Positions 1-44,470 of a stretch of DNA of 44,470 nucleotides are shown here, in pieces (position 1 is the stretch's first letter; each line of letters begins with the position of its first letter). Position numbers and translations under genes: made by a program. Below the pieces are notes generated by a model. That model saw nothing but the letters and a program-made list of their open reading frames with translations, did no database searches and had not been told where the DNA came from. The DNA is from a virus: IMG/VR virus record IMGVR_UViG_3300036781_000133, positions 1-44,470 of that record; one strand, 5' to 3'.

Positions 1-192
1 CCGTGACCGTGGCGGAGCCGTAGGCCGTGACCGTGGCGGAGCCGGAGGCCGTGACCGTGGCGGAGCCGTAGGCCCTGACCGTGGCGGAGCCGTAGGCCGT
101 GACCGTGGCGGAGTCGGAGGCCGTGACCGTGGCGGAGCCGGAGGCCGTGACCGTGGCGGAGCCGGAGGCCCTGACCGTGGCGGAGCCGGAGG
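1..192. repeat. 24-bp tandem repeat, left part (8 units)
   Basis: Eight perfect-length 24-bp units fill positions 1-192; the next unit is interrupted by unique sequence at about 200. Units differ at only three bases: g/c at unit position 3, c/t at 18 and t/g at 21. Read on the minus strand each unit is eight codons, [Y/S][G/D]SATV[T/R]A. In plus-strand order the units are TGY, TGS, TGY, RGY, TDS, TGS, TGS, RGS, where the letters give the T/R, G/D and Y/S choices. The array runs off the left edge and continues at 43918-44470. Confidence 0.97.
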
Positions 193-325
193 CCCTGACG
201 TACTTCCCTTTGTCATCCCAGATCTCGAGCCACACCCCGCGCGGCGAGATGATGTCGATGTCGCTGACCTTGGGGTCTGCTAGGGCCTTGTCCAGTTCAG
301 CTTGCGTGGTGACTTTGGTGCTCAT
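1..325 (-). CDS. Octapeptide-repeat phage protein, N-terminal part (gene continues at the right end of the window)
   Basis: The ATG is at 325-323 with GGAG about six bases upstream. A head of roughly 45 residues (MSTKVTTQAELDKAL..., then SPRGVWLEIWDDKGKYV) leads straight into [Y/S][G/D]SATV[T/R]A repeats, which stay open to position 1. The same frame resumes at 44470 and ends at 43475, so this is one gene cut by the window ends. The head, repeat and tail arrangement matches a family common in actinobacteriophages, whose C-terminal part I recall as DUF7666. The regular alternation of small and beta-branched residues suggests a beta-helix or beta-roll. Its function is unknown; surface binding or a host interaction would be guesses. 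A promoter-like word at 369-380 lies 44 bases upstream. Confidence 0.85.
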   Translation of the reverse strand, partial: MSTKVTTQAELDKALADPKVSDIDIISPRGVWLEIWDDKGKYVRASGSATVRASGSATVTASGSATVTASDSATVTAYGSATVRAYGSATVTASGSATVTAYGSATVT

Positions 326-368: not shown

Positions 369-380
369 TTAGTATGTCAC
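369..380 (-). promoter_or_regulatory. Extended -10 promoter word before the repeat-protein gene
   Basis: The minus strand reads TGACATACTAA: TG, one base, then CATACT, a fit to an extended -10 element. The TGA is also the stop codon of the HTH gene 377-877. It would start transcription about 40 bases upstream of the ATG at 325. The same word recurs at 3755, 3947, 6282, 15177 and 40317. Confidence 0.5.
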
Positions 381-877
381 GAAATTGGGAAGATTTCGGG
401 AGCATTTCCGCCGATCATCTCGAAGCCACCGGGCTCATTCTGCACACCGGCCACGCGCTCCACGATGTTCGTCAGATAGATCAGCACCGGCCCGACAGCA
501 TCCACGAACTCCTTGAGATTGGTGTCCTGGTTCAGCGTGATGCTGGCGATACCGACTGCCAGGCGCTCATGGTCTTTGTTCCACTCGGCCACCGGCGACT
601 CGATCTGCACTCGAGGCAGCAGGATCTTGCCTTGCTCGAGCGCGCGCACGCCGACGTACTTGAGCGTGACGGGGATGTGCTCGACAGCCATGTCTGCCGG
701 CGCCGTGGCGGTGAAGCGAGCGGGGTAGTGCTCGTGCTGTGTGGCGCCCAACTCGTGCAGCGCAGCTTTGACGGTATGGTAGGCCAGCCCCGTTTTCTCC
801 TGGATGTCGGGGATGCTGAGCGGGCGCTTTGTGCCGGCGAGCGCGGCGCTGACCTTCTCGAGGCTGACTAACTTCAT
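377..877 (-). CDS. Winged-helix-like DNA-binding protein, hypothetical
   Basis: 166 residues. The first 50 residues (MKLVSLEKVSAAL..., LSIPDIQEKTGLAYHTVKAAL) look like a winged helix-turn-helix: a short helix, a second helix with DIQEKTGL and a recognition helix YHTVKAALHEL. The remainder is mixed alpha/beta with no motif I recognise. The ATG at 877 overlaps the stop of the upstream gene by four bases (ATGA), so it belongs to the leftward operon. It is a candidate regulator, possibly of the GCAA-N4-TTGC dyads in the control region; that link is inference only. An RNA- or protein-binding role would also fit such a domain. Confidence 0.75.
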   Translation of the reverse strand: MKLVSLEKVSAALAGTKRPLSIPDIQEKTGLAYHTVKAALHELGATQHEHYPARFTATAPADMAVEHIPVTLKYVGVRALEQGKILLPRVQIESPVAEWNKDHERLAVGIASITLNQDTNLKEFVDAVGPVLIYLTNIVERVAGVQNEPGGFEMIGGNAPEIFPIS

Positions 878-30281: not shown

Positions 30282-31588
30282 CAGAGCCTCCCCTTGAAGC
30301 GCGTCTCGAGCGAGAGATCCAAGTACTCAGTATTCAACTCGATGCCGATGTAGCGCCGGCCTTCCTCGAGCGCCACCATGCCAGTGGTCCCTGAGCCGCT
30401 GAACGGGTCCAGCACGATGTCACTGGGCTCGACAGGGTGCTCACACGGCTCGATGCCCAGTGACAGCCATCCACGGCCCAACCAGGTGTCCAGGAGGTCC
30501 TGCGGAAGCGGCCTCGCACCCACCTTGTCGGTTCGGATGTAGTGCGTGAACGCGGAACCGGCCTCCAGAGCCATCTCAGCCCGGTACGGCGACTCTTTCA
30601 TCTGCTCCGCGTAGCCGCGCTGCTCACGTCGCGTCATGGGCCGTCCGCCCTCTCCAGCGCGTCGAGGCCGTGCCATGCCGGCGCGTCCGATCAGACTCGT
30701 GGGATCCGCGGCCCTCTTGCCTCTTCCGGTGGGAGTGCGGATGATCTCGTCGCAGTCGCAGCGCTTGCCGGCGACCCGCGAACTCATGACCACGCAGGGC
30801 CGGATCAACTCCGGAGGGTAGGTGGCGAAGTGCGCGCCGGGGAAGGGTGTCGTTCCCACCGTCCACACGTCACGCCGGTTGCGCGTCTCCTTGACCGTCA
30901 TACCGCCCTTCGGCGCCGTGCGCATCCGGTCATCCTTGGAGTCTCGCTTCGCACCGCTCGAGTAGGGCTTGACGACCGTGCCGGCGGTTAGAGCAGGCTC
31001 GGCGCCGGCCTCGGCGTCGTAGAAATACTTCGGCCCCTTGCTGAGCATGAAGATGTACTCGTGCGCCTTCGTGGGTCGATCTCGGATGCTCTCCGGCATC
31101 GGGTTCGGCTTGTGCCAGATGATGTCCGAGCGCAGCAGCCAGCCATCCGCCTGGAGCGCCAGGGCGACCCGCCAAGGCACGCCGATGAGCGTCTTGGCGG
31201 GGAGGGTAGTTTCGCTCAGCCCGTAGCCTGTCGGAAGCGCAGGGAGCGCCTCGCGGTTGTTCTTGCCGGCACGGAATCCGTCGCCTCGATTGCCGTTGTA
31301 GGCGTTGTAGGTGTCCCCGAGATTCAGCCATACTAACCCGTCATCTGCGAGCACTCGGCGCAACTCTCGGAAGAGTGTCACCAAGGTTTCGACGTACTCA
31401 TCTACGGTTCGTTCGGCACCTACTTGACCGTCCTCTCCGTAGTCGCGCAGGCCGAAGTAGGGCGGAGAGGTCACGATGGTCTGCACCAGGCCGCTGGCAA
31501 GCCCCTGAGCGACCTGGAGGGCGTCTCCGGCGTAGAGAGCGACCTCGGGGTCCGAGTAGTACAACCCGCTCAATGCTTGTCCGACCAT
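30281..31588 (-). CDS. DNA methyltransferase, beta class
   Basis: 435 residues. TSPPY at residues 40-44 is the catalytic motif IV and DPFSGSGTTG near the C-terminus is the AdoMet site; this order defines the beta class (N4-cytosine or N6-adenine). Around residues 270-330 there is an insertion with CDCDEIIRTP, a possible metal or specificity region. No restriction enzyme is adjacent, so it likely protects phage DNA. Starts 19 bases inside the polymerase end; a TTG at 31573 could also serve. Confidence 0.88.
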   Translation of the reverse strand: MVGQALSGLYYSDPEVALYAGDALQVAQGLASGLVQTIVTSPPYFGLRDYGEDGQVGAERTVDEYVETLVTLFRELRRVLADDGLVWLNLGDTYNAYNGNRGDGFRAGKNNREALPALPTGYGLSETTLPAKTLIGVPWRVALALQADGWLLRSDIIWHKPNPMPESIRDRPTKAHEYIFMLSKGPKYFYDAEAGAEPALTAGTVVKPYSSGAKRDSKDDRMRTAPKGGMTVKETRNRRDVWTVGTTPFPGAHFATYPPELIRPCVVMSSRVAGKRCDCDEIIRTPTGRGKRAADPTSLIGRAGMARPRRAGEGGRPMTRREQRGYAEQMKESPYRAEMALEAGSAFTHYIRTDKVGARPLPQDLLDTWLGRGWLSLGIEPCEHPVEPSDIVLDPFSGSGTTGMVALEEGRRYIGIELNTEYLDLSLETRFKGRL

Positions 31589-41153: not shown

Positions 41154-41422
41154 CAGTTGTCTCCGTAGAACTCGCCAGTGGCGAACTCGACTGCGCCGAC
41201 CGGCGTACCTCGCCAGCCTTCTCGACTGACTGGGCGGTGATGCGGGGTTCCGATGAAGCGGAAGTCCACGCCCGCGATTTTGGACGGGACCGGCGTTGCT
41301 GCTCTCGTAGCCGCCTTGAGGATCTCAGCCAATGCCGCGCGGTCGGAGTCATCCAAGTTGCCATCTACCTGAACGCGCATTTTCACGCCGTCGATCTCCA
41401 CGATCTCGCAGTGCCGAGCCAT
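41153..41422 (-). CDS. Hypothetical protein
   Basis: 89 residues from the ATG at 41422, coupled to the helicase stop by TGATG. IVEIDGVKMRVQVDG and a helix AALAEILKAATRAA are followed by FRFIGTPHHRPVSREGWRGTPVG. Its His/Arg motif is not one I know. It lies one base from its neighbours, so it is probably co-expressed with the helicase. Confidence 0.65.
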   Translation of the reverse strand: MARHCEIVEIDGVKMRVQVDGNLDDSDRAALAEILKAATRAATPVPSKIAGVDFRFIGTPHHRPVSREGWRGTPVGAVEFATGEFYGDN

Positions 41423-43347
41423 CAGATCTCTCCGTTCTGGATCGCGTTCTTTAGTTCGTCCTTGAGGTTGACGACCTCGTTGAAGCCTTCGATCATCTGC
41501 TCTTTGCGCTTGATCGTATTGGCCATCCAAGTGTCGATGCTGGCCGGGATGCGAAGCACCACGACCTCACTCTCTTCGGTCTGCCCGATCCGGCGCGTCC
41601 GAGCATAGGCCTGGTTGCGCTTGCCAGGGTTCCACTCTTCATCGAGGATGATCGTCTTGGTCGCGGAGGTCAGGTTGAGCCCGACACCCCCGGTCTTGTA
41701 GTTGGCCAGCACCACATCCCACTTGGCATCCTCGCCGCGCGCCCGGTAAAAGTTGGACTTGATCTCGTTGCGCTTGACCTTGGCCGTGGAGCCGTCGTAG
41801 CGGACGGATCGGATCTGCTCACCCTCGAGGCGCAACTGCATCTCGGCCAGGGCTGTCGTGAACTGGCTGAACACGGTGATTCGGTGGCCGGCCTCGAGCC
41901 ACGGCTTGATGTAGTTCTCGAGCGCGATGTCCATTTTGATGGACTCACGGACCTCATCGCCCACCCGGAAGATGATGTCGCCCTCGGCATCCTTCAGTTC
42001 GATGCCGCCCGGCCAGACGTTGGCCTGCCGCTTGCGGGTGATGAGCGCGATCAAGTGCATGATCGTCATGGCCTCGCCGCTCTCGAGGATGATCTGGGCT
42101 GCCTTGTTGAGTTGCTGGATCGTGCGGTACTGAAGCGGGTAGGCAGCCTTGTCGAAGTCGATGGCGTGAACGGTGACCTTCTGCGGGGGAATGTCGATGC
42201 CGACCTGCTCGAGGGTGCGAGCGATCATGCGTCCGCCGATGAGCGGCTTCAACTTCTCGAGCCCACCTGGTCGGAACTCGTACTTGCTGGTGTGGTAGTT
42301 GTTCACGCAGAACGTCTCGAGGTAGGACTTCTTGCGCTTGAAGAGGATGGGGTCAGCCAGAGTCAGGAGGCTGAAGAGGTCGCCCGGATCGTTGAGGATC
42401 GGCGTGCCGGTGGTCATGATCACGTTCTTCACGCTCTTGGTGCTGAGGTACTGATCGAGCGGGTTCGTGTAGCGCCGACCTGTCGGCTCTCCGTACATCC
42501 ACCCGCACGAGGGGCAGGGTGTCGGATCAGCGCGCTTGCTGCCTTCGCGCATCTTGGTGAGTCCGAAGATCAGACCCTTGCACTTCGGGCATGTGTTGTT
42601 GGCCAGGATGAGCGTGCTCACGCTGCGGAAGTTCGCGCTCGCGGTGTCCTTCATGTTGTGCGCTTCGTCCACGATCACGGTGTCCGGGCGCATCTCGACC
42701 AGCTTGCGCAGGGTGTCCACGTCTCGGCGCCAGATCTCGAAGTTGACCACGATGACGAACTCGCTCAACTTGGTGGCGAGATCGAGCAGTTCGTGCCGGC
42801 GAGCCTTGGTCATCTTGCCCTCGTTGTAGAGGTTGATCACGGTGCGGTGCGGTGCGAACTCGAGGAACTCGCCGGCAAAGCCGTCAGCGACCTCGGGGAT
42901 GGCGACCACGATGACGCGCTTGGCGCCCATCAGATCGAGGGCAGCGATGGATTGGATGGTCTTGCCCATGCCCATCTCGTCGCCCATGATGCTGCGCTCA
43001 GCAGCGGCGAGGAAGCATGCGCCGATGAACTGGAAGGCGTACTTGCCCTGCGTGTACTCGAACCACACCTTGTCGGCTGCGATGGCTCGATACTTTGCCT
43101 CGAGCTGGCCGCGGCGCGTAGTGACATCGAGTGCTTGGTCAGTCGAGGATTCGACAGCCTGGGCTTGCTCGAGCAGCCGGCGAGACTGCGCGATGTCAGC
43201 GCGCCGGGTCGCGGTGGCCTTGTCACGCTGCTCGATCTCACGGACGAGTTTCTCCACTTGAGATCGAGCAGCGGCCAAAGCCTCGAGGTCGTCTTGCTGA
43301 ACGGTCTCGAGTTCGATCAGCCGAGCGCGCTCATCCTCAGCGCTCAC
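41422..43347 (-). CDS. SNF2-family helicase/ATPase
   Basis: 641 residues from a GTG. Residues 1-70 are a coiled coil. Walker A is MGDEMGMGKT (121-130) and DEAH is at 227-230, then TGTPILND (motif III-type). The second RecA domain follows, with SATKTIILDEEWNPGKRNQAYAR and RRIGQT. An insertion with two CxxC pairs (253/256 and 278/281) between the two lobes would bind zinc. SNF2 enzymes move on DNA; in phages they serve replication or recombination. Confidence 0.92.
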   Translation of the reverse strand: MSAEDERARLIELETVQQDDLEALAAARSQVEKLVREIEQRDKATATRRADIAQSRRLLEQAQAVESSTDQALDVTTRRGQLEAKYRAIAADKVWFEYTQGKYAFQFIGACFLAAAERSIMGDEMGMGKTIQSIAALDLMGAKRVIVVAIPEVADGFAGEFLEFAPHRTVINLYNEGKMTKARRHELLDLATKLSEFVIVVNFEIWRRDVDTLRKLVEMRPDTVIVDEAHNMKDTASANFRSVSTLILANNTCPKCKGLIFGLTKMREGSKRADPTPCPSCGWMYGEPTGRRYTNPLDQYLSTKSVKNVIMTTGTPILNDPGDLFSLLTLADPILFKRKKSYLETFCVNNYHTSKYEFRPGGLEKLKPLIGGRMIARTLEQVGIDIPPQKVTVHAIDFDKAAYPLQYRTIQQLNKAAQIILESGEAMTIMHLIALITRKRQANVWPGGIELKDAEGDIIFRVGDEVRESIKMDIALENYIKPWLEAGHRITVFSQFTTALAEMQLRLEGEQIRSVRYDGSTAKVKRNEIKSNFYRARGEDAKWDVVLANYKTGGVGLNLTSATKTIILDEEWNPGKRNQAYARTRRIGQTEESEVVVLRIPASIDTWMANTIKRKEQMIEGFNEVVNLKDELKNAIQNGEI

Positions 43348-43475
43348 GACTCCGGGCGGTGATTCTCGAGGCTCATGTCCTCGTAGTAAGCGTCAGCCTT
43401 GGCTTGGATCTCGTCATCCACTTCAGCCTCGGTGAGAGGCTGAAGTGGACTGACCTGCCAGGGTGTGCAAAGCAT
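43344..43475 (-). CDS. Very small acidic protein
   Basis: 43 residues from an ATG at 43475, coupled on both sides: TGATG with the repeat-protein stop and GTGA with the helicase start. Reads MLCTPWQVSPLQPLTEAEVD, then an acidic helix (DEIQAKADAYYEDM). A perfect hairpin (43418-43448) lies inside its coding part. It could be a coupling leader or a micro-protein. Confidence 0.6.
   Translation of the reverse strand: MLCTPWQVSPLQPLTEAEVDDEIQAKADAYYEDMSLENHRPES
43418..43448 (-). other. Perfect 13-bp hairpin inside a tiny gene
   Basis: CCACTTCAGCCTC (43418-43430) pairs with GAGGCTGAAGTGG (43436-43448) with a 5-base loop. It sits about 30-60 bases after the small gene's ATG. No T-run follows. Possible role as an attenuator or as a translational brake before the helicase. 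Confidence 0.6.
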
Positions 43476-44470
43476 CAGATGTCCTTGGCGTCAATGGTGA
43501 CCTCGCCCAGCACTCGGCCACCCTTGGCTTTGATCTTCGGAGTACTACTCGAGTTGCCGTCGATCACGGACAACTCAGTGACCTTGACAGCCACTTTGAG
43601 GAACCGTGTTGCATCCGGGAAGTAGTCGAGCGCCTGATGCGGCCACGGCGAGAAGTGCAAGCCGTTACCGCAGAAGTCTCCCACCTTCCAGTCAAGGGCT
43701 TCGACACGCTCTCCAATGGGGTAGGGGAACTGTCGGCCTGACTTGAGATCGGCGTCCACTGCCTTGTACACGATGGCTTCGCCGTCGATGATCTCGACAC
43801 CGTGGTAATCCGCCCAGGTCTGGAAGTTGGTGCGATTCAGAGATGTCACGTCGATGACTACGCCGCCCGACAGGGTGACGCGCGCCGAGTGCAGATGAAC
43901 AGCAACGAACGCGCTCGCCCTGACCGTGGCGGAGCCGTAGGCCCTGACCGTGGCGGAGCCGTAGGCCGTGACCGTGGCGGAGTCGGAGGCCGTGACCGTG
44001 GCGGAGCCGGAGGCCCTGACCGTGGCGGAGCCGTAGGCCCTGACCGTGGCGGAGCCGTAGGCCGTGACCGTGGCGGAGCCGGAGGCCGTGACCGTGGCGG
44101 AGCCGTAGGCCGTGACCGTGGCGGAGTCGGAGGCCGTGACCGTGGCGGAGTCGGAGGCCGTGACCGTGGCGGAGCCGGAGGCCCTGACCGTGGCGGAGCC
44201 GGAGGCCCTGACCGTGGCGGAGCCGGAGGCCGTGACCGTGGCGGAGCCGGAGGCCGTGACCGTGGCGGAGCCGTAGGCCCTGACCGTGGCGGAGCCGTAG
44301 GCCGTGACCGTGGCGGAGTCGGAGGCCGTGACCGTGGCGGAGTCGGAGGCCGTGACCGTGGCGGAGCCGGAGGCCGTGACCGTGGCGGAGCCGTAGGCCC
44401 TGACCGTGGCGGAGCCGTAGGCCGTGACCGTGGCGGAGTCGGAGGCCGTGACCGTGGCGGAGCCGGAGGC
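43475..44470 (-). CDS. Octapeptide-repeat phage protein, C-terminal part
   Basis: The 3' half of the gene that begins at 325. From 44470 to 43918 it is 23 repeats of [Y/S][G/D]SATV[T/R]A, followed by a domain of about 145 residues: ASAFVAVHLHSARVTLSGG, then LNRTNFQTWADYHGVEIIDG, AIVYKAVDADLKSG and CGNGLHFSPWPHQALDYFPD. This C-terminal domain is the one I recall as DUF7666 in actinophages; its function is unknown, though GLHFSPxPxxA is highly conserved. Total length is at least about 45 + 31x8 + 145 residues if both repeat parts are counted in full. Confidence 0.85.
   Translation of the reverse strand, partial: ASGSATVTASDSATVTAYGSATVRAYGSATVTASGSATVTASDSATVTASDSATVTAYGSATVRAYGSATVTASGSATVTASGSATVRASGSATVRASGSATVTASDSATVTASDSATVTAYGSATVTASGSATVTAYGSATVRAYGSATVRASGSATVTASDSATVTAYGSATVRAYGSATVRASAFVAVHLHSARVTLSGGVVIDVTSLNRTNFQTWADYHGVEIIDGEAIVYKAVDADLKSGRQFPYPIGERVEALDWKVGDFCGNGLHFSPWPHQALDYFPDATRFLKVAVKVTELSVIDGNSSSTPKIKAKGGRVLGEVTIDAKDI
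43918..44470. repeat. 24-bp tandem repeat, right part (23 units and one base)
   Basis: 23 complete units from 43918 to 44469, then one base of a further unit. Types: RGY 6, TDS 6, TGS 6, TGY 3, RGS 2. Except for the three variable bases the units are identical. A five-unit block (TGY, RGY, TDS, TDS, TGS) at 44254-44373 restarts at 44374. The last 124 bases (44347-44470) equal 22-145 at the left end. Confidence 0.97.

Follow-up and report, generated by a model that had tools for sequence, protein, structure and literature searches.

A repeat at each end of a record

The record analysed here begins and ends inside a tandem repeat, which raises the question whether its two ends belong to one interrupted gene. 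The window, the whole stretch of 44,470 bases under analysis, is an entire IMG/VR record, so that its ends are the contig ends. On the left, a minus-strand frame starting at 325 leaves the record at base 2 with one base over; this frame (325-1) consists of a 42-residue head and 8 octapeptide units. On the right, a minus-strand frame comes in at 44470 and goes out at 43475, with a partial unit, 22 full units and a tail. The features of the junction region and its neighbours are as follows.

200..325, minus strand: start codon and N-terminal head of the presumed split gene, 42 aa, MSTKVTTQAELDKALADP... (translation; with the array, phrog_15773 positions 1-104; head found in 36 related loci)
1..199, minus strand: first part of the array, 8 full octapeptide units and 7 nt (TRF; unit list)
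43917..44470, minus strand: second part of the array, a partial unit and 22 full units (TRF; unit list; codon table)
43475..43916, minus strand: C-terminal tail domain DUF7666, homologous to the T4 rIIB C-terminus (Pfam match at 43511-43774; profile search; structure model)
41422..43347, minus strand: helicase, next gene downstream, in an early replication and recombination block (phrog_62; 48% identity to the Shocker helicase)
377..877, minus strand: next gene upstream, an ORF without a family match, on the strand of the presumed split gene (ORF call)

TRF detected a 24-bp period at both ends with scores far above the chance expectation: 8.3 copies at the left (1-199; score 349, 95% matches) and 23.1 copies at the right (43917-44470; score 947, 95% matches). 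The preliminary description had seen the same repeat at both ends, and this was confirmed, as was the reality of both minus-strand frames. A single family model covers the two halves. At the left end phrog_15773 is matched over positions 1-104 of 288 (E 6e-21) and at the right end over positions 37-262 of 288 (E 2e-67), so that the match extends over head, array and tail. It matches only these two ends, and no second copy of head or tail was found anywhere in the record. The gene is a member of PHROG 15773 and of DUF7666.

We consider it very probable that the two halves are one gene, which the assembly split artificially within a hypervariable minisatellite, and that the genome maps as a circle. 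The record would then comprise almost the whole of a circularly mapping actinobacterial phage genome, opened at this place since the assembler was unable to cross a 24-bp minisatellite inside one gene. In the predicted product, a head of about 42 residues would be followed by a beta-solenoid built from 25, 31 or more 8-residue units and then by the DUF7666 tail. The only break lies in the repeat and no fixed genome end is visible elsewhere, which would fit circular permutation. In addition, the upstream gene at 377..877 lies on the same strand, so the operon would be continuous across the junction.

Intact homologues

Head, array and tail occur together in mycobacteriophages of several genera, in Gordonia phage Spooky and in two uncultured phages, mostly as single frames; the intact homologues include Redi, Che8, SkinnyPete and Spooky. 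Alignments were needed to find these relatives, and the window tail used as a single-sequence query returned none. A DNA search of IMG/VR with this exact unit gave no match. Bacterial genome contigs scanned with the tail alignment yielded no relative, in a patterned scan that distant ones may escape. L097, which lies on a 44.4-kb contig, has an intact gene whose tail is 64% identical to the window tail. Its flanks do not match the window flanks, so L097 proves an intact gene and not the same locus. In Nitzel (gp52/gp53; L004) and EleanorGeorge (gp55; L011) a frameshift has split or truncated the gene, and loss of the gene therefore seems to be tolerated.

Recurrent breaks in the same gene

When IMG/VR was scanned with alignments, one scan found 21 loci and the other 80. 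Among the 64 metagenome contigs with this gene, 27 stop in the array, within the frame and on the upstream side of the tail domain, and 1 stops downstream of the tail at a distance of less than 600 nt. If both sides were equally likely, the chance of 27 versus 1 would be about 1e-7, a value that assumes independence, although a few contigs come from a shared sample. The opposite contig end was read for 25 of the 27. In nine of these (G007, G011, G014, G019, G023, G026, G028, G030 and G031; 40-120 kb) it holds head and array on the same strand, the array alone being counted where the stretch read was too short to reach the head. The other 16 had no head at the other end and are fragments. Three of the nine have exact end overlaps, of 126 nt (G014), 107 nt (G023) and 154 nt (G026), all of which keep the frame by arithmetic. 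Two more, G011 and G028, have exactly 126 nt in common with the array at the other end. The three independent values of 126 nt would fit an assembler k of 127.

The gene thus represents a systematic blind spot: about four in ten of the metagenomic contigs that carry it in this sample stop inside it. A break in the gene causes phage genomes that are circular and complete to be recorded as linear fragments, and the true gene length is lost. One contig is bounded by two different repeat genes (L094; start of contig 3300045120_000102), with the octapeptide gene at one end and a pentapeptide-repeat gene at the other.

The ends of the window could also lie in two different repeat genes of a linear genome fragment, with a coincidental match between them. 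The exact terminal overlap amounts to only 1 base and nothing within the record closes the circle, as this explanation would have it. However, one end has the head alone and the other the tail alone, both are of the same family and strand with the same unit alleles, nine sister contigs are split alike, and the gene is single-copy in relatives, all of which makes two genes very improbable. Even less credible are physical genome ends at a packaging site inside the repeat. The contig does stop in the repeat at both ends, but isolates whose linear genomes are complete have the gene internally, the contigs of widely differing phages break off at varied places in the array and not at one site, and G014, G023 and G026 have exact end overlaps. 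As far as can be judged from sequence, the circularity of the window genome is strongly supported. The preliminary description had taken head, repeat and conserved tail for one gene and the contig for a circular or permuted one broken in the repeat, and the shared family model, the intact homologues and the nine contigs split alike bear out both proposals.

Phase and copy number at the junction

A direct join of the window ends is out of frame by one base, exactly as had been calculated before. An in-frame join permits an overlap of 24n+1 bases or a gap of 24m-1 bases. The earlier suggestion that an overlap of 24n+1 restores the frame holds by arithmetic and agrees with the exact overlaps in three sister contigs, but it has no counterpart in the window ends beyond their single exact base. 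At lengths of 25, 49, 73 and 145 bases the overlap contains 1, 2, 3 and 2 mismatches, respectively. The two arrays have 124 exact bases in common, beginning 145 (= 6x24+1) bases before the contig end; in the 145-base candidate overlap two mismatches come after them, each at a unit position where other units of the array also differ. The simplest unit counts for the window gene are 25 or 31, and the real number may be higher, for in the window missing units (24m-1 bases) are as likely as an overlap.

Variation and predicted structure of the array

The 30 full units of the window differ at three codons only, ACG/AGG, TCC/TAC and GGC/GAC. All three variable bases change the amino acid (T/R, S/Y and G/D), and there is no synonymous change. 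Counted within arrays, 39 non-redundant examples (483 units) exhibited 214 non-synonymous and 37 synonymous changes, with an expected synonymous share of 28% (p = 2.7e-7). Of the 214 non-synonymous changes, 175 fall on unit positions 2, 4 and 5, and 0 and 2 on positions 1 and 3. Part of the scarcity of synonymous changes might come from codon constraint and homogenisation instead of selection. Codons at the fixed positions are mostly uniform within an array and differ between phages, which is expected from homogenisation.

In SkinnyPete and Frankie the 330-nt domain stretches are identical, and the arrays are of 12 and 14 counted units in a different order; L170 and L172, also with identical domain stretches, have arrays seven units apart. 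At the level of these sequence pairs, arrays turn over while the tail stays constant. Recombination, by slippage or unequal exchange, would gain, lose and shuffle the units. A diversity-generating retroelement would account for variation limited to few codons. Yet no reverse transcriptase was found in the record, the varying bases (C/G, C/A and G/A) are not adenine-specific, so that neither mark of a retroelement target was present, and gain or loss of whole units separates the arrays; we regard such an origin as highly improbable.

The beta-helix that had been proposed for the repeat agrees with an AlphaFold2 model of the array, which has one strand per 8 residues at a mean pLDDT of 92 (a monomer model; confidence for repeats can be too high). 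Strands fall on unit positions 8, 1, 2 and 3. From the alternation of residues along a strand, V1 and A3 would be expected on one side of the modelled fold and position 2 on the opposite one, with positions 4 and 5 in the turn. The variable residues would point outward and form a changeable binding surface. An acidic DNA mimic was considered for the array and dropped, its charge being balanced (8 basic and 6 acidic among 186 residues).

Two variants of the array were observed among the related loci. Record 2627853841_000003 (L132, also L073) has three copies of another 24-nt unit (VQHRTPSS) within a normal octapeptide array, with the frame kept. Six loci (L077, L095, L147, L164, L168 and L175) have a decapeptide array (SSQPHVEARG-like, with a 30-nt unit), which resembles the octapeptide arrays in the kind of positions that vary and breaks assemblies as they do.

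The tail domain and T4 rIIB

Pfam DUF7666 (PF24703) matches the tail with E 5e-11 and 43.3 bits, above the gathering cut-off of 27. We searched every T4 frame with A4, a profile of 50 tail relatives. The sole match was the C-terminus of rIIB (E 5.3e-8), in which residues 203-304 are the region homologous to the tail. Real rIIB scored 27.8 bits, compared with at most 7.7 bits in 5000 shuffles of rIIB. Pfam's own DUF7666 model misses T4 rIIB, and the 50-sequence alignment is needed. The structure model of the tail (pLDDT 92), compared with the BFVD viral structure models, retrieved several rIIB and DUF7666 proteins with E 1e-3 to 1e-7. The tail fold was also matched in giant-virus ankyrin-repeat and DUF4116 proteins, more weakly, and in a phage pentapeptide protein; judging by these models, fusions of the domain to many different repeat scaffolds may exist. 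Among the papers searched, none names DUF7666. Matches to a defence library were weak repeat matches and were set aside.

Could the tail instead be an enzyme akin to the ADP-ribosyltransferases, modifying host proteins in the manner of T4 Alt and Mod? Arr-2, PARP10/15 and C3-type folds are weakly matched among the top PDB results by probability, and the tail has a conserved CGxGLHF motif. Nevertheless, no PDB match reached E <= 0.001 (the ADP-ribosyltransferases all had E >= 0.2), the TM-scores were at most 0.38, and no sequence match of the tail to a solved structure, including a solved ADP-ribosyltransferase, was found. The enzyme is therefore unlikely. With the long model, the solenoid dominated the search of solved structures, and nothing was found at E <= 0.001.

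Gene neighbourhood and putative function

The major capsid protein is 57% identical to that of Microbacterium phage Shocker (45.4 kb), which also matches in genome size and gene order, and 44-46% identical to those of Arthrobacter and Cellulosimicrobium phages. A PF24703 search of Shocker and Jasmine found no DUF7666, a weak result as the control genomes gave no match either. The repeat gene looks accessory. Elsewhere in the window, a 120-base stretch of a DNA methyltransferase gene (31016-31136) is 85-87% identical at the DNA level to Pseudomonas and Shewanella phages, and the remainder of the 20 kb tested has no such match.

In the window the gene adjoins a helicase, with an exonuclease and a Sak4-like annealing protein close by. 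Around it in about 30 intact loci lie RecE/YqaJ exonucleases, the annealing proteins RecT and Erf, HNH endonucleases and antirepressors (Ant). These recombination and replication neighbours speak for a protein made early and acting inside the cell, and against a virion fibre. A virion part, with the array as a triple-stranded beta-helix like the T4 gp5 needle, would draw on the Pfam Gp5_trimer_C match (32.2, cut-off 30.9) and on baseplate PHROGs that match the array. However, low-complexity arrays match repeat models easily, the tail is common to rIIB and not to baseplate proteins, and the gene has early recombination and replication genes beside it in the window, outside a structural block, and in the roughly 30 loci, which leaves a virion part quite unlikely.

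An early protein acting inside the cell, by comparison, would most likely serve in counter-exclusion or host interaction, with the tail as its functional module. We tentatively propose a putative early counter-exclusion or host-interaction factor with a variable surface, a possible assignment and not yet a probable one. According to PMC11077077, lambda RexAB excludes T4 rII mutants. Orthologues of rIIA have been discussed as counter-defence, by authors who read rIIB as a transcription factor (PMC7824862). More speculative, and in our judgement rather doubtful, is that the array would serve an rIIB-type counter-exclusion protein as a hypervariable, modular surface for recognition, which phages would re-target by shuffling 8-residue units of a few kinds, each of positions 2, 4 and 5 having two or three alleles, while the tail stays constant. 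Array turnover beside a constant tail suggests a fast-evolving recognition surface, and through the rIIB link the unnamed domain DUF7666 gains a function that can be tested in a phage system studied as thoroughly as almost any other.

Comparison with known systems

Repeats are known to break the contigs of circular phage genomes and to leave maxK end sequences (COBRA, PMC10914622). The likeness lies in short-read assemblers that break at repeats and leave such ends; by contrast, one gene family is the recurrent hot spot here, and the window is without an exact maxK overlap.

Two further systems resemble the array as repeats. The tetrapeptide repeats of Tweety gp54 and Che8 gp57 occur in 48, 26 and 15 copies in three phages, and the variation in Tweety gp54, limited to certain codon positions, has been read as selection for variation (PMC2884959). 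They too expand in frame in the early region of a phage, but as AA-x-[SY] tetrapeptides, unlike the octapeptide array. Che8 (L003) has both kinds, gp57 lying two genes upstream of the octapeptide gene gp59, as two separate expanding repeat genes in one early block. In the Bordetella phage BMP-1, VR2 of bbp36 is described, as cited in PMC2884959, as a 24-bp element with 9-20 repeats by isolate in a non-essential gene, and in that description it resembles our 24-bp variable repeat.

T4 rIIB has a C-terminal domain homologous to the window tail. Its N-terminal region is HTH-like, seen as sub-cut-off matches, and it is without the octapeptide array; the window head differs, and Pfam found no HTH-like region in it. 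Because the N-terminal regions are unlike, the gene shares a domain with rIIB and is not filed as rIIB.

The examples of PHROG 15773, Mycobacterium phage Redi gp44 and Che8 gp59, are like the window gene in their head, V-x-A-x-[GD]-S-x-x array and DUF7666 tail, and they lie in the early region near RecE/RecT or WhiB genes. They differ in the alleles and in the length of the array, about 3-20 units versus 25-31 or more in the window, and their tails are about 44-46% identical to the window tail.
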